NCBI RefSeq assembly: GCF_000317615.1 | Contig: NC_019780.1 | Span: 248,001-312,000 of the forward strand | Direction of reading: 5' to 3' | Origin: Dactylococcopsis salina PCC 8305 | GTDB taxonomy: Bacteria; Cyanobacteriota; Cyanobacteriia; Cyanobacteriales; Rubidibacteraceae | Length of the DNA stretch: 64,000 bases | In this document: piece by piece, positions 41,443-49,076 of the stretch | How the letters are laid out: each line of letters begins with the position of its first letter | Numbering within the stretch: position 1 is the first letter of the stretch | The notes under the pieces: model-generated | The model's database searches: none | What the model was told of the DNA's origin: nothing | What the model saw: only the letters and a program-made list of their open reading frames with translations | Program-made: the position numbers and the translations under genes

Positions 41443-42006
41443 ATGACTGCTGCTACTTCTAAATCCCTGACACTGGAAGAATTCCTGCAACTTCCCGAAA
41501 CCAAACCCGCCAGCGAATTCCTCGCCGGCAAAATCATTCAAAAACCGATGCCGAAAGGAAGACATAGTCGAATACAAGGAAAACTTAGTAATGAAATTAA
41601 TCGGGTTACTGAGGAGCAAAAAATTGCTTATGCTTTTCCCGAACTCAGGTGCAGTTTTGGGAATCGATCAATTGTTCCCGATATCGCTGTCTTCCGTTGG
41701 GATAATATTCCGTTCCTTGATAATGGTGAAGTGCCAGATCGATTTTCTTTCCCTCCCAACTGGGTAATTGAAATTCTATCTCCAGAACAAAAACCGAATC
41801 AAGTGATTGGTAATATTTTGTACTGCATTGAAAATGGCAGCGAATTAGGCTGGTTAATTGATCCTGATGATCAAAGTATTTTAGTATTCTGGCGCGATCG
41901 CGCTCCTTCCCTGCGACAAGAAAACGACGTGCTTCCCGTCTTAGCAGAGATAGAATTAGAACTAACGGCTAATCAACTCTTTAGCTGGCTAAAAATGGGA
42001 AATTAA
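41443..42006 (+). CDS. Uma2 family (DUF820) putative endonuclease
   Basis: 187 residues (MTAATSKSLTLEEFLQLPET at the start). Core motifs are CSFGNRSIVPDIAVFRWDNI, PPNWVIEILSPEQ and GSELGWLIDPDDQSILVFW. It is one of three close paralogues (43049, 48507). About 140 bp upstream and the first ~50 codons are nearly identical to the 43049 copy. It is convergent with the coiled-coil gene at 42033. Confidence 0.92.
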   Translation: MTAATSKSLTLEEFLQLPETKPASEFLAGKIIQKPMPKGRHSRIQGKLSNEINRVTEEQKIAYAFPELRCSFGNRSIVPDIAVFRWDNIPFLDNGEVPDRFSFPPNWVIEILSPEQKPNQVIGNILYCIENGSELGWLIDPDDQSILVFWRDRAPSLRQENDVLPVLAEIELELTANQLFSWLKMGN

Positions 42007-42032: not shown

Positions 42033-42623
42033 TTACTCCCCATATTCCTGTAAAAAAGCCAAAAAATCCCTTAAGGCTTGTCCGTTGGCTTCGTTGGGTT
42101 CGAGTTGATACCGTATTTGTAAAATAGTTCCTCGATTTTGGATTCGAGCACGGCGAGCCGCTCGTTCTCTTTCCTCAGTTGCTCGGTTTCGCTCTCGATT
42201 TGCTCGTTCTCTTTCCTCAGCTGCTCGGTTTCGCTCTTGATTTGCTCGTTCTCTTTCCTCAGCTGCTCGGTCTCTTTCCTCGTCTGCTGCGCGATCGCGC
42301 TGTATTTCTCGCTGTCTTCTCTCAACTCTTTCATTCTCTGTTCGTGCTGCTTCTGCGCTTCTTCTTCTTTCTGATTCTGCTTCGCGTGCTGTTTCTCGAT
42401 TTCGACGGTCCCACTCAACGCCGAAAGCAACCAGCGCCACCACGAGGGCTGCCACGGTGAGTCGGTTACTCCAGACTCGGGGTTGCTCAATTGTTGCGAG
42501 GAAGGTGAAGTCTTCTTGGTCATAAAACCTCAGAAACGCGACGGCAATGGTTAGTACACTTAAAAGGGTATTGGGGAAAAGCGAGAGAAAGTTTAACCAA
42601 ATTTTTCTTTGGGGTGACTCCAT
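42033..42623 (-). CDS. Membrane-anchored coiled-coil protein, frame A (array copy 9)
   Basis: 196 residues, no recognised family. Two hydrophobic segments (residues ~9-33, LLSVLTIAVAFL; ~53-70, LTVAALVVALVAFGVE) are followed by a long Arg/Glu coiled coil (~72-160) containing two full 14-residue repeats of the type RAAEERERANRERN. A conserved tail (ILQIRYQLEPNEAN, LRDFLAFLQEYGE) closes it. The start MESPQRKIW is shared by the paralogues. A second frame (42071-42523) is open through the same DNA. The function is unknown; a membrane-tethered oligomer is a reasonable inference. Confidence 0.65.
   Translation of the reverse strand: MESPQRKIWLNFLSLFPNTLLSVLTIAVAFLRFYDQEDFTFLATIEQPRVWSNRLTVAALVVALVAFGVEWDRRNRETAREAESERRRSAEAARTENERVERRQREIQRDRAADEERDRAAEERERANQERNRAAEERERANRERNRATEERERAARRARIQNRGTILQIRYQLEPNEANGQALRDFLAFLQEYGE
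42071..42523 (-). CDS. Overlapping frame-B coiled-coil protein (array copy 9)
   Basis: A 150-residue open frame, +1 relative to frame A, starting 100 nt inside it and ending 38 nt before its stop. It opens MTKKTSPSSQQLSNPESGVT, has a Trp-rich hydrophobic patch (PWQPSWWRWLLSALSG), then heptad coils built from KENEQIESETEQLR repeats, and ends KIEELFYKYGI plus a Pro/Thr tail. A GAGG box sits 4 nt before its ATG. It may be real dual coding or a by-product of codon use in frame A. Confidence 0.4.
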   Translation of the reverse strand: MTKKTSPSSQQLSNPESGVTDSPWQPSWWRWLLSALSGTVEIEKQHAKQNQKEEEAQKQHEQRMKELREDSEKYSAIAQQTRKETEQLRKENEQIKSETEQLRKENEQIESETEQLRKENERLAVLESKIEELFYKYGINSNPTKPTDKP

Positions 42624-42720
42624 TTTAGCAGACTTTCTACTAAGTTCGGCTTCATTGTCCCATTCCCTTGCTGAAAAGGAAAGGTTTGAACTCGATGGGA
42701 CACAAAGCTCTCAGTTAGAA

Positions 42721-42886
42721 TTACTCCCCAGATTCCTGTAAAAAAGCCAAAAAATCCCTTAAGGCTTGTCGGTTGGCTTCGTTGGGTTCGAGTTGATACC
42801 GTATTTGTAGAACAGTTCCTCGATTTTGGATTCGAGTACGGCGAGCCGCTCGTTCTCTTTCCTCGTCTGCTGCGCGATCGCGCTAA
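42721..42886 (-). pseudogene. 3' relic of the coiled-coil gene (array copy 8)
   Basis: Only the end of the gene is left (RAADEERERAARR coil end and ILQ/VLQIRYQLEPNEAN tail to the TAA at 42721). It is cut at a HIP1 site, beyond which unrelated forward-strand sequence begins. The 97-bp spacer to copy 9 is the same as between other copies. Confidence 0.75.
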
Positions 42887-42980
42887 AAAAGAGTTTGGTT
42901 TTTCTCCTCGTTCCCTAGAAGTCGGGTTACAGCAAGAAATTGAACTCATGCGCCAACAAGGATTAATCTCTTCTTCTTAA
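42882..42980 (+). pseudogene. 3' relic of an unidentified gene
   Basis: 33 codons reading AKKEFGFSPRSLEVGLQQEI and ELMRQQGLISSS to a TAA, joined at a HIP1 site to the coiled-coil relic. The peptide looks like a genuine protein C terminus, but no family was recognised. Confidence 0.35.
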
Positions 42981-43048
42981 ACCATCCTCAAAACTGTTGA
43001 GAGCGAACCCTAAAATAGTAGATATAGAAGCCTAACCTAATCCTCTCT

Positions 43049-43639
43049 ATGACTGCTGCTACTTCTAAATCCCTGACACTGGAAGAATTCCTGCAACTTC
43101 CCGAAACTAAACCCGCCAGCGAATTCCTCGCCGGGAAAATCATTCAAAAACCAGGCTCGAAAGGAAGACATAGCTGTTTACAGTATGAAGTTTGCAATGT
43201 TATCAATCAAGCAACAAAAAATCAAAAAATTGCCTACGCTTTTCCTGAACTGAGATGCACTTTTGCCAATCGTTCCATTGTTCCCGATATCGCTGTCTTC
43301 CGATGGCAAAACATTCCCTTCCTCTCCGATGGACAAGTTCCAGATCGATTTTCTTTCCCTCCCAACTGGGTAATTGAAATTCTATCTCCAGAACAAAAAC
43401 CGAATCAAGTGATTGGTAATATTTTGTACTGCATTGAAAATGGCAGCGAATTGGGCTGGTTAATTGATCCCGATGATCAAAGTGTTTTGGTATTCTGGCG
43501 CGATGCTCGAAGAGCGGTCGCTTCGCGACATCGCGCTCCTTCCCTGCGACAAGAAAACGACGTGCTTGCTGTCTTAGCAGAAATAAAATTAGAACTAACG
43601 GCTGATCAACTCTTTAGCTACATCAAAATGGGAAATTAA
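43049..43639 (+). CDS. Uma2 family (DUF820) putative endonuclease with a 9-residue HIP1-site insert
   Basis: 196 residues, close to the 41443 gene; the upstream 60 bp and the first 45 codons are nearly the same. It is nine residues longer because a 27-nt insert (43505-43531) splits the HIP1 site that encodes FWRDRAPSL, producing FWRDARRAVASRHRAPSL. Catalytic-region motifs (CTFANRSIVPDIAVFRWQNI, WVIEILSPEQ) are intact. It is convergent with array copy 7. Confidence 0.92.
   Translation: MTAATSKSLTLEEFLQLPETKPASEFLAGKIIQKPGSKGRHSCLQYEVCNVINQATKNQKIAYAFPELRCTFANRSIVPDIAVFRWQNIPFLSDGQVPDRFSFPPNWVIEILSPEQKPNQVIGNILYCIENGSELGWLIDPDDQSVLVFWRDARRAVASRHRAPSLRQENDVLAVLAEIKLELTADQLFSYIKMGN
43500..43534. 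repeat. 27-nt double-hairpin insert inside a HIP1 site (Uma2 copy)
   Basis: The insert 43505-43531 consists of a GCTC/GAGC hairpin (GAA loop), one G, a GTCGC/GCGAC hairpin (TTC loop) and AT. The uninterrupted site is seen in the paralogues at 41443 and 48507 (ggcgcgatcgcgct). The second stem is the same as the first stem of the DUF29 inserts. Confidence 0.85.
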
Positions 43640-43665
43640 GCCGAAAATTACCCCTAAAAACTGTT

Positions 43666-43920
43666 TTACTCCCCATATTCCTGTAAAAAAGCCAAAAAAT
43701 CCCTTAAGGCTTGTCCGTTGGCTTCGTTGGGTTCGACTTGATACCGTATTTGTAAAATAGTTCCTCGATTTTGGATTCGAGCACGGCGAGCCGCTCGTTC
43801 TCTTTCCTCAGCTCTTTCATTCTCTGCTCGTGCTGTTTCTGTCTCTTGGCGTGCTGTTTCTCGATTTCGACGGTCCCACTCAACGCCGAAAGCAACCAAC
43901 GCCACCACGAGGGCTGCCAC
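43666..43920 (-). pseudogene. Coiled-coil gene, frame A, 5'-truncated (array copy 7)
   Basis: Retains the second membrane segment (from a GTG at 43920), a very short coil (ETARAENERAEERERAARR) and the conserved tail. Homology to the other copies runs back to RFYDQQDF near 43985 but then hits a stop, where the HicAB insertion begins. The first membrane segment is lost. Frame B (43704-43988) is intact. Confidence 0.6.
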
Positions 43921-43988
43921 GGTGAGTCGGTTACTCCAGATTCGGGGTTGCTCAATTGTTGCGAGGAAGGTGAAGTCTTGTTGGTCAT
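43704..43988 (-). CDS. Overlapping frame-B coiled-coil protein (array copy 7)
   Basis: 94 residues from the ATG at 43988 (MTNKTSPSSQQ); an upstream start at 44012 would add eight residues across the insertion junction. It has the Trp patch, a short coil without 14-residue repeats, and the KIEELFYKYGIKSNP ending. This frame stays complete although frame A has lost its start here. Confidence 0.38.
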   Translation of the reverse strand: MTNKTSPSSQQLSNPESGVTDSPWQPSWWRWLLSALSGTVEIEKQHAKRQKQHEQRMKELRKENERLAVLESKIEELFYKYGIKSNPTKPTDKP

Positions 43989-44004
43989 AAAACCTCTGAA
44001 GGTA

Positions 44005-44337
44005 TCAAGCACGAGCTAATTTAGTGTTTATATGGCGATTTAGGCTTACATTCTGCTCAGCAGCTTCAATTACAAGCTGACGATGTAACTGTGGAGTTGC
44101 ACGAACTTGAAATTTTCCACTGTATTCTCCATTGGCTATAGGCTCCGGAGGGGTTTCTCCCTTTGCTTCCATATCTGATACTACATCTGCCACTAATTCA
44201 GAGATTCCTTTTAGAGCATCTACCTGGTTTTCATCCAAGCATGAAAGGCTTGGAAACTCAGCGCAAAGACCTACAAATTCCTCATCTTCTGGCGACCAAG
44301 TTATTCTATAGGTATAGTTTTTAGGGTCTATCATCAT
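44005..44337 (-). CDS. HicB-like antitoxin with C-terminal DNA-binding helix
   Basis: 110 residues. The N-terminal HicB fold (YTYRITWSPEDEEFVGLCAE, FPSLSCLDENQVDALKGI) is followed by a ribbon-helix-helix-type C terminus (GKFQVRATPQLHRQLVIEAA, SLNRHINTKLA). It should bind HicA and repress the operon. It overlaps the hicA-like gene by 17 bp. The pair sits between coiled-coil copies 7 and 6 and truncates the former. Confidence 0.88.
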   Translation of the reverse strand: MMIDPKNYTYRITWSPEDEEFVGLCAEFPSLSCLDENQVDALKGISELVADVVSDMEAKGETPPEPIANGEYSGKFQVRATPQLHRQLVIEAAEQNVSLNRHINTKLARA

Positions 44338-44578
44338 CCATTTCCTCCTTTTTCTTTATAGCTTCTAGAGCTTTCCTAACCTGATAGGGTTTAGCCATCC
44401 CATTTTTGTTTTGGATGTTAACCCGAGGGTCTCCAGGCCAAGGTGTTTGATAGATAAGATGGCTCCCTCTTTGCCTAGGAAGACCAAAATAATGCTCGCA
44501 AACTTTAGCTAGCTCGTGAAACTTGACATTTTTTGGATTTCTTTCTATCTTTTCGAGTATTTTTTTTACACTAGGCAT
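44321..44578 (-). CDS. HicA-like toxin
   Basis: 85 residues: MPSVKKILEKIERNPKNVKF, then FGLPRQRGSHLIYQTPWPGD with the catalytic-type His, and GMAKPYQVRKALEAI. Predicted mRNA interferase. It is transcribed first and the antitoxin second, the classic hicAB order. Confidence 0.87.
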   Translation of the reverse strand: MPSVKKILEKIERNPKNVKFHELAKVCEHYFGLPRQRGSHLIYQTPWPGDPRVNIQNKNGMAKPYQVRKALEAIKKKEEMDDDRP

Positions 44579-44620
44579 TCGACTAATTTTATTATAGTAT
44601 CATTAATAATACTAGTCAAC

Positions 44621-44675
44621 GAAAACGTGCCTTCTGTCTTAGCAGAGATAGAATTAGAACTAACGGCTGACAACT
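44621..44675 (+). pseudogene. 3' relic of a Uma2 gene
   Basis: It matches the last ~50 bp of the Uma2 genes at 41443 and 43049 (gtcttagcagagatagaatt, aactaacggctga), directly followed by the 3' end of array copy 6. The Uma2/coiled-coil convergent junction is therefore present three times. Confidence 0.75.
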
Positions 44676-44678
44676 GTT

Positions 44679-45185
44679 TTACTCCCCATATTCCTGCAAG
44701 AAAGCCAAGAAATCTCTTAAGGCTTGTCCGTTGGCTTCGTTGGGTTCGACTTGATACCGTATTTGTAAAATAGTTCCTTGATTTTGGATTCGAGTACGGC
44801 GAGCCGATCGTTCTCTTTCCTCAGCTGCTCGTTCTCTTTCCTCGTCTGCTGCGCGATCGCGCTGTATTTCTCGCTGTCTTCTCTCAACTCTTTCATTCTC
44901 TGTTCGTGCTGCTTCTGCGCTTCTTCTTCTTTCTGATTCTGCTTCGCGTGCTGTTTCTCGATTTCGACGGTCCCACTCAACGCCGAAAGCAACCAGCGCC
45001 ACCACGAAGGCTGCCACAGTGAGTCGGTTACTCGCCTCTCGGGGTTGTTCAATTGTTGCGAGGAAGGTGAAGTCTTGTTGGTCATAAAACCTCAGAAACG
45101 CGACAGCAATGGTTAGTACACTTAAAAGGGTACTGGGTAATAGCGAGAGAAAATTTAACCAAATTTTTCTTTGGGGTGACTCCAT
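44679..45185 (-). CDS. Membrane-anchored coiled-coil protein, frame A (array copy 6)
   Basis: 168 residues, MESPQRKIWLNFLSLLPSTL start, two membrane segments, a coil of medium length lacking full 14-residue repeats (QRDRAADEERERAAEERERS) and the conserved ILQIRYQVEPNEAN tail. It lies 97 bp behind the stop of copy 5. Confidence 0.62.
   Translation of the reverse strand: MESPQRKIWLNFLSLLPSTLLSVLTIAVAFLRFYDQQDFTFLATIEQPREASNRLTVAAFVVALVAFGVEWDRRNRETAREAESERRRSAEAARTENERVERRQREIQRDRAADEERERAAEERERSARRTRIQNQGTILQIRYQVEPNEANGQALRDFLAFLQEYGE
44717..45085 (-). CDS. Overlapping frame-B coiled-coil protein (array copy 6)
   Basis: 122 residues, MTNKTSPSSQQLNNPERRVT start, Trp patch, coil KEEEAQKQHEQRMKELRED and the KIKELFYKYGIKSNP end. 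It starts 100 nt inside frame A and stops 38 nt before its end. Confidence 0.38.
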   Translation of the reverse strand: MTNKTSPSSQQLNNPERRVTDSLWQPSWWRWLLSALSGTVEIEKQHAKQNQKEEEAQKQHEQRMKELREDSEKYSAIAQQTRKENEQLRKENDRLAVLESKIKELFYKYGIKSNPTKPTDKP

Positions 45186-45282
45186 TTTAGCAGACTTTCT
45201 ACTAAGTTCGGCTTCATTGTCCCATTCCCTTGCTGAAAAGAGAAGGCTTGAACTTGATGGGACACAAAGCTCTCAGTTAGAA

Positions 45283-45768
45283 TCACTCCCCAGATTCCTG
45301 TAAAAAAGCCAAAAAATCCCTTAAGGCTTGTCCGTTGGCTTCGTTGGGTTCGAGTTGATACCGTATTTGTAGAACAGTTCCTTGATTTTGGATTCGAGTA
45401 CGGCGAGCCGATCGTTCTCTTTCTTCAGCTGCTCGGTTTCGCTCTCGATTTGCTCGTTCTCTTTCCTCAGCTGCTGCGCGATCGCGCTGTATTTCTCGCT
45501 GTCTTCTCTCAACTCTTTCATTCTCTGTGCGTGCTGTTTCTCGATTTCGACGGTCCCACTCAACGCCGAAAGTAACCAACGCCACCACGAGGGCTGCCAA
45601 GGTGAGTCGGTTACTCCAGACTCTGGGTTGCTCAATTGTTGCGAGGAAGGTGAAATCTTGTTGGTCATAAAACCTCAGAAACGCGACAGCAATGGTTAGT
45701 ACACTTAAAAGGGTACTGGGTAATAGCGAGAGAAAATTTAACCAAATTTTTCTTTGGGGTGACTCCAT
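45283..45768 (-). CDS. Membrane-anchored coiled-coil protein, frame A (array copy 5)
   Basis: 161 residues from the ATG at 45768, which aligns with MESPQRKIW of the other copies; the frame is open 24 codons further upstream from a TTG. One 14-residue coil repeat. The tail reads TVLQIRYQLEPNEAN and ends QESGE, as in the copy 8 relic. Confidence 0.62.
   Translation of the reverse strand: MESPQRKIWLNFLSLLPSTLLSVLTIAVAFLRFYDQQDFTFLATIEQPRVWSNRLTLAALVVALVTFGVEWDRRNRETARTENERVERRQREIQRDRAAAEERERANRERNRAAEERERSARRTRIQNQGTVLQIRYQLEPNEANGQALRDFLAFLQESGE
45321..45668 (-). CDS. Overlapping frame-B coiled-coil protein (array copy 5)
   Basis: 115 residues, MTNKISPSSQQLSNPESGVT start, Trp patch, one KENEQIESETEQLK repeat, and the usual KIKELFYKYGINSNP end. 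Same offsets to frame A (100 nt and 38 nt) as in other copies. Confidence 0.38.
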   Translation of the reverse strand: MTNKISPSSQQLSNPESGVTDSPWQPSWWRWLLSALSGTVEIEKQHAQRMKELREDSEKYSAIAQQLRKENEQIESETEQLKKENDRLAVLESKIKELFYKYGINSNPTKPTDKP

Positions 45769-45865
45769 GCTAGCAGACTTTCTACTAAGTTCGGCTTCAT
45801 TGTCCCATTTCCTTGCTGAAAAAGAAAGGCTTGAACTCAATGGGACACAAAGCTCTCAGTTAGAA

Positions 45866-46408
45866 TCACTCCCCATATTCCTCCAAAAAAGCCAAAAAAT
45901 TCCTTAAGGCTTGTCCGTTGGCTTCGTTGGGTTCGACTTGATACCGTATTTGTAAAATAGTTCCTCGATTTTGGATTCGAGTACGGCGAGCCGCTCGTTC
46001 TCTTTCCTCAGCTGCTCGGTTTCGCTCTCGATTTGCTCGTTCTCTTTCCTCAGCTGCTGCGCGATCGCGCTGTATTTCTCCCTGTCTTCTCTCAACTCTT
46101 TCATTCTCTGTTCGTGTTGCTTCTTCGCGTCTTCTTCTCTCCTCATCGCCTCTTCTCTGGTCATCTTCAGCCAAGCGATTTGTTTCTCGGTTTCGACGGT
46201 TCCACTCAACGCTGAAATTAACCACTGCCACCAAGAGGGCCGCCACAGTGAGTCGGTTGCTCCAGAGTCTTGGTTCTCTAATTTGTCCGAGGATTGTGAA
46301 ATCTTGTTCATCATAAAAACGTAGAAAAGCGACAGTAATAGTCAGAAGAGTTAAAAGCGTTCCTGGTAAAAGGGCAAGGAAATTCTGCCATGGAGATGAT
46401 GTTTTCAT
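45866..46408 (-). CDS. Membrane-anchored coiled-coil protein, frame A (divergent array copy 4)
   Basis: 180 residues and the most diverged copy: MKTSSPWQNFLALLPGTLLT start and QIREPRLWSNRLTVAALLVA second segment. The coil has an extra Asp/Glu/Arg stretch (LAEDDQRRGDEERRRREEA) before one standard 14-residue repeat. The tail is conserved (RYQVEPNEAN, FLAFLEEYGE). The spacer to copy 3 is 43 bp rather than 97. It is useful for measuring selection in the two frames. Confidence 0.62.
   Translation of the reverse strand: MKTSSPWQNFLALLPGTLLTLLTITVAFLRFYDEQDFTILGQIREPRLWSNRLTVAALLVAVVNFSVEWNRRNRETNRLAEDDQRRGDEERRRREEATRTENERVERRQGEIQRDRAAAEERERANRERNRAAEERERAARRTRIQNRGTILQIRYQVEPNEANGQALRNFLAFLEEYGE
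45904..46314 (-). CDS. Overlapping frame-B coiled-coil protein (divergent array copy 4)
   Basis: 136 residues, MMNKISQSSDKLENQDSGAT start, PSWWQWLISALSGTVE patch, coil with MTREEAMRREEDAKKQ and the standard repeat, KIEELFYKYGIKSNP end. It stays open despite the divergence; its start is 94 nt into frame A, and the GAGG box of other copies is absent. Confidence 0.38.
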   Translation of the reverse strand: MMNKISQSSDKLENQDSGATDSLWRPSWWQWLISALSGTVETEKQIAWLKMTREEAMRREEDAKKQHEQRMKELREDREKYSAIAQQLRKENEQIESETEQLRKENERLAVLESKIEELFYKYGIKSNPTKPTDKP

Positions 46409-46451
46409 TGTAAATGATTAGAGCGAATCAGGTCTTATTTTACCTTGATTC

Positions 46452-47021
46452 CTAATCCCCATATTCCTGCAAAAAAGCCAAAAAATTCCTTAAGGCTTGT
46501 CCGTTGGCTTCGTTGGGTTCGATTTGATACCGTATTTGTAGAATAGCTCCTCGATTTTGGATTCGAGCACGGCGAGCCGCTCGTTCTCTTTCCTCAGCTG
46601 CTCGGTTTCGCTCTCGATTTGCTCGTTCTCTTTCCTCAGCTGCTCGGTTTCGCTCTTGATTTGCTCGTTCTCTTTCCTCAGCTGCTCGGTTTCGCTCTCG
46701 ATTTGCTCGTTCTCTTTCCTCAGCTGCTGCGCGATCGCGCTGTATTTCTCGCTGTCTTCTCTCAACTCTTTCATTCTCTGTGCGTGCTGTTTCTCGATTT
46801 CGACGGTCCCACTCAACGCCGAAAGTAACCAACGCCACCACGAGGGCTGCCAAGGTGAGTCGGTTACTCCAGACTCTGGGTTGCTCAATTGTTGCGAGGA
46901 AGGTGAAATCTTGTTGGTCATAAAACCTCAGAAACGCGACGGCAATGGTTAGTACACTTAAAAGGGTACTAGGTAATAGCGAGAGAAAATTTAACCAAAT
47001 TTTTCTTTGGGGTGACTCCAT
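46452..47021 (-). CDS. Membrane-anchored coiled-coil protein, frame A (array copy 3)
   Basis: 189 residues with the longest run of coil repeats: three consecutive 14-residue units of the type RAAEERERANRERN. It has the standard MESPQRKIW start, two membrane segments and the AILQIRYQIEPNEAN tail. It lies 97 bp behind the stop of copy 2. Confidence 0.63.
   Translation of the reverse strand: MESPQRKIWLNFLSLLPSTLLSVLTIAVAFLRFYDQQDFTFLATIEQPRVWSNRLTLAALVVALVTFGVEWDRRNRETARTENERVERRQREIQRDRAAAEERERANRERNRAAEERERANQERNRAAEERERANRERNRAAEERERAARRARIQNRGAILQIRYQIEPNEANGQALRNFLAFLQEYGD
46490..46921 (-). CDS. Overlapping frame-B coiled-coil protein (array copy 3)
   Basis: 143 residues, MTNKISPSSQQLSNPESGVT start. 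Three consecutive 14-residue repeats (KENEQIESETEQLR type), i.e. six heptads, then KIEELFYKYGIKSNP. Confidence 0.4.
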   Translation of the reverse strand: MTNKISPSSQQLSNPESGVTDSPWQPSWWRWLLSALSGTVEIEKQHAQRMKELREDSEKYSAIAQQLRKENEQIESETEQLRKENEQIKSETEQLRKENEQIESETEQLRKENERLAVLESKIEELFYKYGIKSNPTKPTDKP

Positions 47022-47118
47022 TTTAGCAGACTTTCTACTAAGTTCGGCTTCATTGTCCCATTCCCTTGCTGAAAAAGAAAGGCTTGAACTCGATGGGACA
47101 CAAAGCTCTCAGTTAGAA

Positions 47119-47562
47119 TTACTCCCCATATTCCTGCAAAAAAGCCAAAAAATCCCTTAAGGCTTGTCCGTTGGCTTCGTTGGGTTCGATTTGATACCGT
47201 ATTTGTAGAATAGTTCCTCGATTTTGGATTCGAGCACGGCGAGCCGCTCGTTCTCTTTCTTCAGCTGCTCGTTCTCTTTCCTCAGCTCTTTCATTCTCTG
47301 CTCGTGCTGTTTCTGCCTCTTGGCGTGCTGTTTCTCGATTTCGACGGTCCCACTCAACGCCGAAAGCAACCAGCGCCACCACGAGGGCTGCCACGGTGAG
47401 TCGGTTGCTCGCCTCTCGGGGTTGTTCGATGATTGCGAGGAAGGTGAAGTCTTCTTGGTCATAAAACCTCAGAAACGCGACAGCAATGGTTAGTACACTT
47501 AAAAGGGTACTGGGTAATAGCGAGAGAAAATTTAACCAAATTTTTCTTTGGGGTAGCTCCAT
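47119..47562 (-). CDS. Membrane-anchored coiled-coil protein, frame A (array copy 2)
   Basis: 147 residues, MELPQRKIWLNFLSLLPSTL start, two membrane segments, a short coil (QEAETARAENERAEERERAA) without full repeats, and the conserved tail. It lies 97 bp behind the stop of copy 1. Confidence 0.62.
   Translation of the reverse strand: MELPQRKIWLNFLSLLPSTLLSVLTIAVAFLRFYDQEDFTFLAIIEQPREASNRLTVAALVVALVAFGVEWDRRNRETARQEAETARAENERAEERERAAEERERAARRARIQNRGTILQIRYQIEPNEANGQALRDFLAFLQEYGE
47157..47462 (-). CDS. Overlapping frame-B coiled-coil protein (array copy 2)
   Basis: 101 residues, MTKKTSPSSQSSNNPERRAT start, Trp patch, short coil and the KIEELFYKYGIKSNP end; same offsets to frame A as in other copies. 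Confidence 0.38.
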   Translation of the reverse strand: MTKKTSPSSQSSNNPERRATDSPWQPSWWRWLLSALSGTVEIEKQHAKRQKQHEQRMKELRKENEQLKKENERLAVLESKIEELFYKYGIKSNPTKPTDKP

Positions 47563-47659
47563 TCTAGCAGAGTATCTACTAAGTTCGGCTTTATTGTCCC
47601 ATTCCCTTGCTTAAAAGGAAAGGTTTGAACTTGATGGGACACAAAGCTCTCAGTTAGAA

Positions 47660-48124
47660 TCACTCCCCATATTCCTGCAAGAAAGCCAAAAAATTCCTTA
47701 AGGCTTGTCCGTTGGCTTCGTTGGGTTCGATTTGATACCGTATTTGTAGAATAGCTCCTCGATTTTGGATTCGAGCACGGCGAGCCGCTCGTTCTCTTTC
47801 CTCGTCTGCTGCGCGATCGCGCTGTATTTCTCGCTGTCTTCTCTCAATTCTTTCATTATCTGCTCGTGCTGTTTCTGCCTCTTGGCGTGCTGTTTCTCGA
47901 TTTCGACGGTCCCACTCAACGCCGAAAGCAACCAACGCCACCACGAGGGCTGCCACGGTGAGTTGGTTACTCGCCTCTCTGGGTTGCTCAATTGTTGCGA
48001 GGAAGGTGAAATCTTGTTGGTCATAAAACCTCAGAAACGCGACGGCAATGGTTAGTACGCTTAAAAGGGTACTGGGTAATAGCGAGAGAAAGTTTAACCA
48101 AATTTTTCTTTGGGGTGACTCAAT
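47660..48124 (-). CDS. Coiled-coil protein, frame A, start codon changed to ATT (array copy 1)
   Basis: The frame is open over all 154 codons and aligns end to end with other copies, but the first codon is ATT instead of ATG (IESPQRKIWLNFL). Translation would need the rare ATT start or the GTG at 47956, which loses the first membrane segment. It is the 5'-most copy of the array in the direction of transcription. The coil is short. Confidence 0.5.
   Translation of the reverse strand: MESPQRKIWLNFLSLLPSTLLSVLTIAVAFLRFYDQQDFTFLATIEQPREASNQLTVAALVVALVAFGVEWDRRNRETARQEAETARADNERIERRQREIQRDRAADEERERAARRARIQNRGAILQIRYQIEPNEANGQALRNFLAFLQEYGE
47698..48024 (-). CDS. Overlapping frame-B coiled-coil protein (array copy 1)
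   Basis: 108 residues, MTNKISPSSQQLSNPERRVT start with the ATG and GAGG box intact although frame A has lost its ATG. Short coil, KIEELFYKYGIKSNP end. Confidence 0.4.
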   Translation of the reverse strand: MTNKISPSSQQLSNPERRVTNSPWQPSWWRWLLSALSGTVEIEKQHAKRQKQHEQIMKELREDSEKYSAIAQQTRKENERLAVLESKIEELFYKYGIKSNPTKPTDKP

Positions 48125-48284: not shown

Positions 48285-48455
48285 AGCAAGGGAGCAATGG
48301 GAGACAAGGGAGACAAGGGAGACAAGGGAGATAAGGGAGCGATTTTTCTCCCCCATCTTCCCCATCTCCCCCATCTCCCCCATCTTCCCCATCTTCCCCA
48401 TCTTGCCTTTTACCTTTTGCCTTTTGCCTCTTGCCTTTTGCCTTACTACAAGAAA
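48285..48455. repeat. Low-complexity 9-bp and 7-bp repeats
   Basis: Four to five GGGAGACAA-type 9-mers, then about seven CCCCATCTT/CCCCATCTC 9-mers, then TTGCCTT(T) heptamers. This is strand-biased purine/pyrimidine sequence. Open frames through it (for example GEMGEMGKMG on the reverse strand) are repeat artefacts. The rest of 48125-48506 shows no gene. Confidence 0.85.
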
Positions 48456-48506: not shown

Positions 48507-49076
48507 ATGGCAGTTACAACCGCATCAAAACCCCTTACCCTAGAAGAGTTCCTGAAGTGTCCCGAAACTAAACCAGCGATCAGTGAGTTTATAGCAGGAG
48601 AAATTATTCAAAAGCCAATGCCGAAAGGAAGACACAGTTGTTTACAGTATGAAACTTGTCATGTAATTAATCAGGTGACAAAAAAACAAAAAATTGCTTA
48701 TGCGTTTCCCGAACTTAGATGTAGTTTTGGGAATCGATCGCTCGTCCCTGATATCGCTGTCTTCCGTTGGGATAATATTCCGTTTCTAAATAATGGCGAA
48801 GTACCCGATCGATTTTCTCTCCCTCCTAACTGGGTGATTGAGATTCTATCTCCAGAACAAAAACCGAATCAGGTGATTGGAAACATTTTGTACTGTATCG
48901 AAAAGGGGAGCGAGTTGGGTTGGTTTATTGACCCTGATGATCACAGTATTTTAGTATTTTGGCGCGATCGCGCTCCTAGTCTTCAACAGGAAAATGATTC
49001 TCTCCCCCTCCTGTCTGGAATCGAATTAGAACTAACAGTGGATCAGCTATTTAGCTGGCTGAAAATGGGAATTTAA
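48507..49076 (+). CDS. Uma2 family (DUF820) putative endonuclease
   Basis: 189 residues, third close paralogue of the 41443 and 43049 genes (MAVTTASKPLTLEEFLKCPE; CSFGNRSLVPDIAVFRWDNI; WVIEILSPEQ; GWFIDPDDHSILVFW). The HIP1 site in FWRDRAPSL is uninterrupted here. It ends three bases before the ATG of the YdcF-like gene, so the two are co-transcribed. Confidence 0.92.
   Translation: MAVTTASKPLTLEEFLKCPETKPAISEFIAGEIIQKPMPKGRHSCLQYETCHVINQVTKKQKIAYAFPELRCSFGNRSLVPDIAVFRWDNIPFLNNGEVPDRFSLPPNWVIEILSPEQKPNQVIGNILYCIEKGSELGWFIDPDDHSILVFWRDRAPSLQQENDSLPLLSGIELELTVDQLFSWLKMGI

Follow-up and report, generated by a model that had tools for sequence, protein, structure and literature searches.

The window analysed here is a stretch of 64,000 nucleotides (nt) from Dactylococcopsis salina PCC 8305 (contig NC_019780.1, positions 248,001 to 312,000), and the element in question is a head-to-tail tandem array of a small gene on its reverse strand, at 42033-48124. 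The repeat unit is open in two overlapping frames: frame A, which predicts a two-pass membrane protein with a charged coil, and frame B, nested inside it at +1. We suggest that the repeat unit is an ancient nested dual-coding gene pair whose inner member is internally initiated and whose products are probably paired as length-matched coils at the membrane, a reading to which we give a probability of about 0.75. That both frames code and are under purifying selection, also in the non-repetitive part of the overlap, is strongly supported by the comparison of homologous copies, and from this selection we infer that both proteins are translated. Judging by its homologues, the dual-frame arrangement has an ancient origin and a wide spread among cyanobacteria, and the coil has changed in length mostly by steps that preserve the heptad.

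Eight long copies and one fragment make up the array, in agreement with an original prediction, made from the letters of this stretch, which had counted at least eight reverse-strand copies with these open reading frames (ORFs) and coordinates. The frame A ORFs reach up to 147-196 amino acids, and frame B, with 94-150 amino acids, is open in all eight long copies. The end of frame B lies exactly 38 nt before the frame A stop in every copy, the fragment included. The frame B ATG lies exactly 100 nt 3' of the A start in six copies (94 nt in the most diverged copy, 45866-46408), and a GAGG box is found 4 nt upstream of this ATG in every long copy but 45866-46408. The 38-nt and 100-nt spacings and the GAGG box in most copies had been described in the original prediction and held up on re-examination.

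The original prediction had left two options, that both products are made or that the composition of the repeat preserves the second frame by chance. If frame A were the sole gene, frame B would be open since the Arg, Glu and Ala codons of A cannot form +1 stops. For the coil this is correct: its residues in frame A (R, E, A, N, Q, D) are encoded by codons without T in position 2, so that the coil cannot make a +1 stop, an open frame B over the coil alone proves nothing, and the key selection tests were repeated outside the coil. When the synonymous codons of A were reshuffled in 88 intact copies, B stayed open with a median probability of 0.056, although up to 0.58 in some single copies, and a mean of 2.2 stops was expected in B where 0 were observed; the +2 frame of the same DNA contains 6.6 stops per copy on average. 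Outside the coil, B has 0 stops vs 3.5-3.8 expected per pair of copies, and in more distant pairs its conservation is roughly double that predicted from A-only coding (identity of 0.40/0.60/0.68 vs 0.20/0.29/0.33 expected, above expectation in 105 of 105). The suspicion of a frame kept open by repeat composition was thus right for the coil and wrong for the rest of the overlap, and we consider it extremely improbable that A is the only gene.

The pattern of substitutions carries the same message. A codon alignment of the 88 intact copies was split into the A-only 5' end, the overlap and the A-only 3' end, and differences at each codon position (p1 to p3) were counted in 34 independent pairs. 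In the A-only 5' and 3' ends position 3 is the most different (0.41 and 0.49; p3/p1 of 1.75 and 1.84), and the ratio of nonsynonymous to synonymous differences (pN/pS) in frame A is 0.21-0.38. In the overlap the position 3 difference is 0.17, p3/p1 is 0.82 and the most variable position is position 1 of A, which is the wobble position of B; synonymous position 3 varies 2.4-2.8 times less there than in the ends that belong to A alone. Where the overlap lies outside the coil, doubly silent changes occur at a rate of 0.452, those silent only in A at 0.087, those silent only in B at 0.098 and those silent in neither at 0.042. Relative to the doubly silent rate, A-silent changes that alter B give an omegaB of 0.19 (0.14-0.28) and B-silent changes that alter A an omegaA of 0.22 (0.16-0.31), with intervals from a bootstrap over pairs; these are simple counting estimates with the transition/transversion ratio fixed at 2, and the pairs, though independent in sequence, are not entirely so in phylogeny. 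The +1 frame in the non-overlapping ends of A gives an omega of about 1.0-1.2. The comparison of constraint in each frame, which the original prediction had proposed as a check, therefore finds both frames constrained, and synonymous variation in A does not ignore B, since those A-silent changes that would alter B are suppressed by a factor of about five. Of the two options, chance is rejected, and both frames are under purifying selection in distant cyanobacteria.

Synonymous rates drop under any overlapping constraint, and an RNA or DNA element, rather than a protein B, could in principle limit the synonymous sites of A. Such an element would hardly follow the codon phase of B, as the constraint does with its most variable site at the B wobble position, nor would it exclude stops from B, and doubly silent changes occur at the neutral rate or above (0.95-1.85 of the A-only pS). 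We regard this explanation as having a negligible probability.

The converse possibility is that B is the sole gene and A a by-product. It can be supported by a census of 118 distinct copies (near-full-length, non-redundant nested copies under a uniform count), in which 11 have a stop in A with B intact and one has a stop in B with A intact; this census was seeded from B matches and is somewhat biased towards B. Yet the non-overlapping ends of A evolve as frame-A coding DNA by both of the measures given above, and in the mirror test, with B held fixed, the identity of A is 0.36/0.58/0.67 vs 0.20/0.32/0.35 expected, above in 105 of 105. Each broken A contains a single stop and is otherwise preserved, and the stops look recent. 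B as the only gene is in our view very unlikely; the constraint in both frames, by counting and by shuffling, rejects the two single-frame models as well as the RNA element. We also considered the broken-A copies as a proof that B is essential and rejected this, because the breaks look recent and the asymmetry becomes marginal if the count is limited to changes that leave the other frame silent (p about 0.04-0.17, for ratios of A loss to B loss from 14:1 down to 9:1, where the 14:1 figure took in copies that are partial or have a frameshift; counted uniformly, the ratio is 11:1).

In the same census both frames are open in 106 of the 118 copies, and the routine breaking of one frame by stops, which the original prediction had named as evidence against two products, is not seen in the homologues. 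Within the order, a single A query detected relatives in 26 of the 293 genomes, and a scan of 84,980 species added 10 more loci beyond the order, among them some in Cyanobium and Synechococcus; a single B query matched 27 of 386 genomes of the phylum. Profile searches of 390 cyanobacterial genomes of the class detected A in 80 and B in 68, and the two profiles independently recover the locus in many cyanobacterial families. Where a genome has A but no B, the matches are weak or partial. When the profiles are paired, an A of at least 100 amino acids without B is essentially absent, and among the loci fetched later 61 A ORFs have B at +1 and none of at least 100 amino acids lacks it. No match was found in plasmid and phage collections, nor among IMG/VR viral contigs with three B queries.

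A few unusual copies were met among the homologues. Only one copy clearly combines an intact A with a stopped B (locus L160, reverse strand, about 1500-1809), the stop being a TAG in the conserved Trp cluster of B. Two A-broken loci of one genome (L020 and L092, genome G082) share an insertion, FGGERSS in frame B, beside a HIP1 octamer, with A stopped and B open. At L096 (8390-8869, forward strand) and L100 (5390-5681, reverse strand) no A frame is recognisable, and a coil and C-terminus that resemble those of B are fused to other sequence; these are possible decayed or re-used B segments. Weak B matches in one family of the same phylum (f47; E of about 1e-4, several in ORFs of 350-650 amino acids) were judged spurious.

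One of the questions raised by the nested frame is how its translation starts. All 84 intact copies that were scored have ATG as the B start; it lies about 73-110 nt inside A across the family and is mostly formed by the conserved Tyr-Asp/Gly codons of A (TAT-GAN). A stop in the B frame is found no more than 3 codons upstream of this ATG in 60 of 88 copies and no more than 10 codons upstream in 87 of 88, so B either begins at the ATG or is reached by a frameshift downstream of the stop. Of 53 sequences, 50 use AGG or AGA for the Arg codon that precedes the B start, which creates GAGG or GAGA within the Leu-Arg codons of A. Programmed ribosomal frameshifting, which would fuse B to the start of A, has a reachable geometry because B lies at +1 relative to A; it is improbable, though, given the invariant ATG, the stops just before it in most copies and the variable stretch just after it, in which no conserved slippery site was seen. 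We infer that B is made by internal initiation on the same mRNA and not by frameshifting.

Protein A is predicted to have two hydrophobic segments, whose maximal hydropathy over 19 residues averages 2.04 in the first and 1.56 in the second (above 1.6 in only 48% of copies), the latter followed by a positively charged stretch, a long helix and a C-terminal helix; an AlphaFold2 model of Copy 7 is helical with a mean predicted local distance difference test (pLDDT) score of 84. Protein B is predicted by AlphaFold2 to have a disordered Ser/Pro-rich start and then one long helix that runs from the Trp-rich segment through the coil (Copy 7, helical, pLDDT 74), and across 54 sequences its residues M1 and W31 do not vary. 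The original prediction of coiled coils in both frames, Arg/Glu-rich and two-pass in A, Trp-rich with heptads in B, is borne out by a 3.5-residue hydrophobic periodicity in both: in B one heptad position is occupied by Leu-type residues (0.79), in A two adjacent ones mainly by Ala. Even close copies differ widely in coil length; of 147 such differences, 127 are 0 or 4 modulo 7. Coiled coils tolerate spacings of 7 and of 7+4 residues. For A no family scored above the cut-off in Pfam or NCBIfam, and for B the two databases gave only matches to coiled-coil composition, far below their cut-offs. A profile search of A against the PDB and a structural search with Foldseek/VIA returned only generic helical matches (ESCRT-III Snf7 with Z 7.0 and a root-mean-square deviation of 6.1), which we dismissed as the chance level for long helices.

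A possible course of events is as follows. One ribosome would start at the outer ATG and make protein A, whose second membrane helix would run into a long cytoplasmic Arg/Glu/Ala helix and the conserved C-terminal helix. A second ribosome would start at the inner ATG, often with a GAGG or GAGA box, and read the +1 frame into protein B, with its Ser/Pro-rich N-terminus, Trp-rich helix and leucine heptad coil. Since the second membrane helix of A and the Trp-rich helix of B share the same DNA, as the two coils do, each protein would present a membrane-prone segment and then a coil of equal length. The simplest reading is that A and B form a paired, length-matched complex, meeting as coils on the membrane side, and as the same 21-nt DNA repeats encode both coils, their lengths would be matched automatically. 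The array itself may have grown by recombination between repeats. More tentatively, the repeated DNA may work as a genetic ruler, in which A and B coils bind each other at the membrane and each 21-nt gain or loss resizes both, a system kept across cyanobacteria and diversified in arrays; we see this extension as possible, with the odds somewhat against it.

Several observations weigh against a nested, internally initiated pair with matched coils. A box similar to a Shine-Dalgarno sequence precedes B in only 39 of 84 copies, and AGG is also common at the Arg codon just after the B stop (20 of 46 Arg codons in the A-only 3' end); because it is common at such an unrelated site, the Shine-Dalgarno argument is weak. 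Slippage of 21- or 42-nt repeats also gives heptad-sized insertions and deletions and may partly explain them, and together with the shared ancestry of the copies this makes the heptad-step pattern a support and not a proof. The 11 copies with a stopped A suggest that A is dispensable in some copies. No conserved neighbour gene hints at a role in 29 genomic contexts, which hold only scattered families and mostly unannotated neighbours; genes that we take to be DUF29-like recur in just 3 of the 29.

Another hypothesis is that the pair is a toxin-antitoxin-like or defence unit, in which A is a SLATT-related membrane effector with two transmembrane segments (2TM) and B a coiled-coil antidote or regulator, tied together by the overlap. 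The family is patchily distributed, has many copies per genome and forms tandem arrays, here with a hicAB pair among the copies, and it lacks fixed neighbours; all this would fit such a unit, as would the 11:1 excess of copies that lost A and kept B, although this asymmetry is at best marginal once mutational opportunity is taken into account. A also resembles SLATT and 2TM anti-phage effectors in having two membrane helices followed by a helical cytoplasmic region, and several A proteins match the PADLOC 2TM effector (best E 1.6e-4, reached by 1 of 20 A proteins scanned singly) and RTasSLATT (6e-3) weakly over the transmembrane region. These matches are of sub-threshold quality, near the noise for such sequences, and come from order-level members only, with none in distant members; Pfam finds no SLATT family, and no nucleotide-signal or reverse-transcriptase gene that could be an operonic sensor partner (CBASS, SLOG, RT) was seen near A/B in the 29 mostly unannotated contexts. 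We hold this role to be unlikely, if worth keeping in mind.

One of the closest known geometries to the nested pair is that of the phage spanin genes Rz and Rz1, where Rz1 is nested on the same strand at +1 within the gene of Rz, a membrane-anchored coiled-coil protein, and encodes an outer-membrane lipoprotein with a lipobox. In contrast to Rz1, the B consensus has no signal peptide and no lipobox Cys, and the A/B family lies in chromosomal tandem arrays, with no match to phage records or IMG/VR. Nested genes have been described as rare anomalies, of which comS in srfA of Bacillus subtilis is the classic same-strand case (PMC12350097). Like B, comS is fully contained, on one strand and out of frame, in a larger gene; it is described, however, as a single gene that has its own independent function and whose host is a large synthetase gene (PMC12350097), whereas A and B are both small, nearly co-extensive, multi-copy in many genera and have their two coils encoded by shared repeats. 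A few genes, for the most part antisense, have been described as overprinted in E. coli and other bacteria (PMC4683798). The antisense genes pop, laoB and ano of E. coli O157:H7 are backed by selection or expression, and their authors regard them as recent overprints or as lineage-restricted (PMC7103648, PMC5810103, PMC5960689); the A/B overlap differs in being sense, ancient and class-wide. The Pseudomonas genes olg1 and olg2, cited in PMC12350097, are further bacterial overlapping protein-coding genes with such backing by selection or expression. No earlier report of the A/B family, or of overlapping genes in cyanobacteria, was found in the literature searched.

Nested overlap as such is thus known; unusual here are how deeply it is conserved, its form as an array and the two coils from one repeat. 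Evolution has kept both overlapping frames in more than 100 relatives, and such cases are exceptionally rare outside viruses. These natural replicates, with single-coding flanks as controls within each copy, allow statistical tests of two proteins that share one sequence. They also add two conserved cyanobacterial protein families for which Pfam and NCBIfam have no model, and at these loci the frame rejected by an annotation pipeline is probably missing from the annotation.

The array is the only locus of the family in the host genome (3.78 Mb, one contig), and it is broken up by the hicAB pair and a Uma2 gene. Copy 1, whose frame A (42033..42623, 196 amino acids) matches the A profile and predicts the two-pass membrane protein with its Arg/Glu/Ala coil, contains frame B, with the Trp-rich helix and leucine heptad coil, nested at +1 (42071..42523, 150 amino acids). 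Next in coordinate order comes a 3' fragment of a copy at about 42721..42890, in which both frames are open. Copy 2 has a complete frame B (43704..43988, 94 amino acids from the ATG) and a 5'-truncated remnant of frame A (43666 to about 44000). Copies 3 to 5 have frame A at 44679..45185 (168 amino acids), 45283..45768 (161 from the ATG) and 45866..46408 (180), with frame B at 44717..45085 (122), 45321..45668 (115) and 45904..46314 (136), respectively. In Copy 6 (A 46452..47021, 189 amino acids; B 46490..46921, 143) units of 42 nt, equal to 14 residues or two heptads, are repeated 3.6 times with a 98% match. Copy 7, the input of the structure models, has A at 47119..47562 (147) and B at 47157..47462 (101). 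Copy 8 is open over 154 codons in frame A (47660..48124) with ATT in place of the start ATG, is among the six copies with the 100-nt spacing, and has frame B at 47698..48024 (108).

The hicA/hicB toxin-antitoxin pair lies within the array at 44005-44578 on the reverse strand (HicB, Pfam E 1.1e-12), and the truncated 5' edge of Copy 2 directly abuts the end of hicB. Three closely similar genes for Uma2, a putative endonuclease, flank and interrupt the array on the forward strand (41443-42006, 43049-43639 and 48507-49076), which suggests that they were duplicated along with it. HIP1 octamers (GCGATCGC) are found inside several copies, at about 42850-42900 and in the coils; the 3' fragment starts with such an octamer, which suggests recombination at HIP1. 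Just upstream of the array, at 48287-48444, there are short tandem repeats of 7 to 9 nt (CAAGGGAGA, TCTTCCCCA and TTGCCTT).

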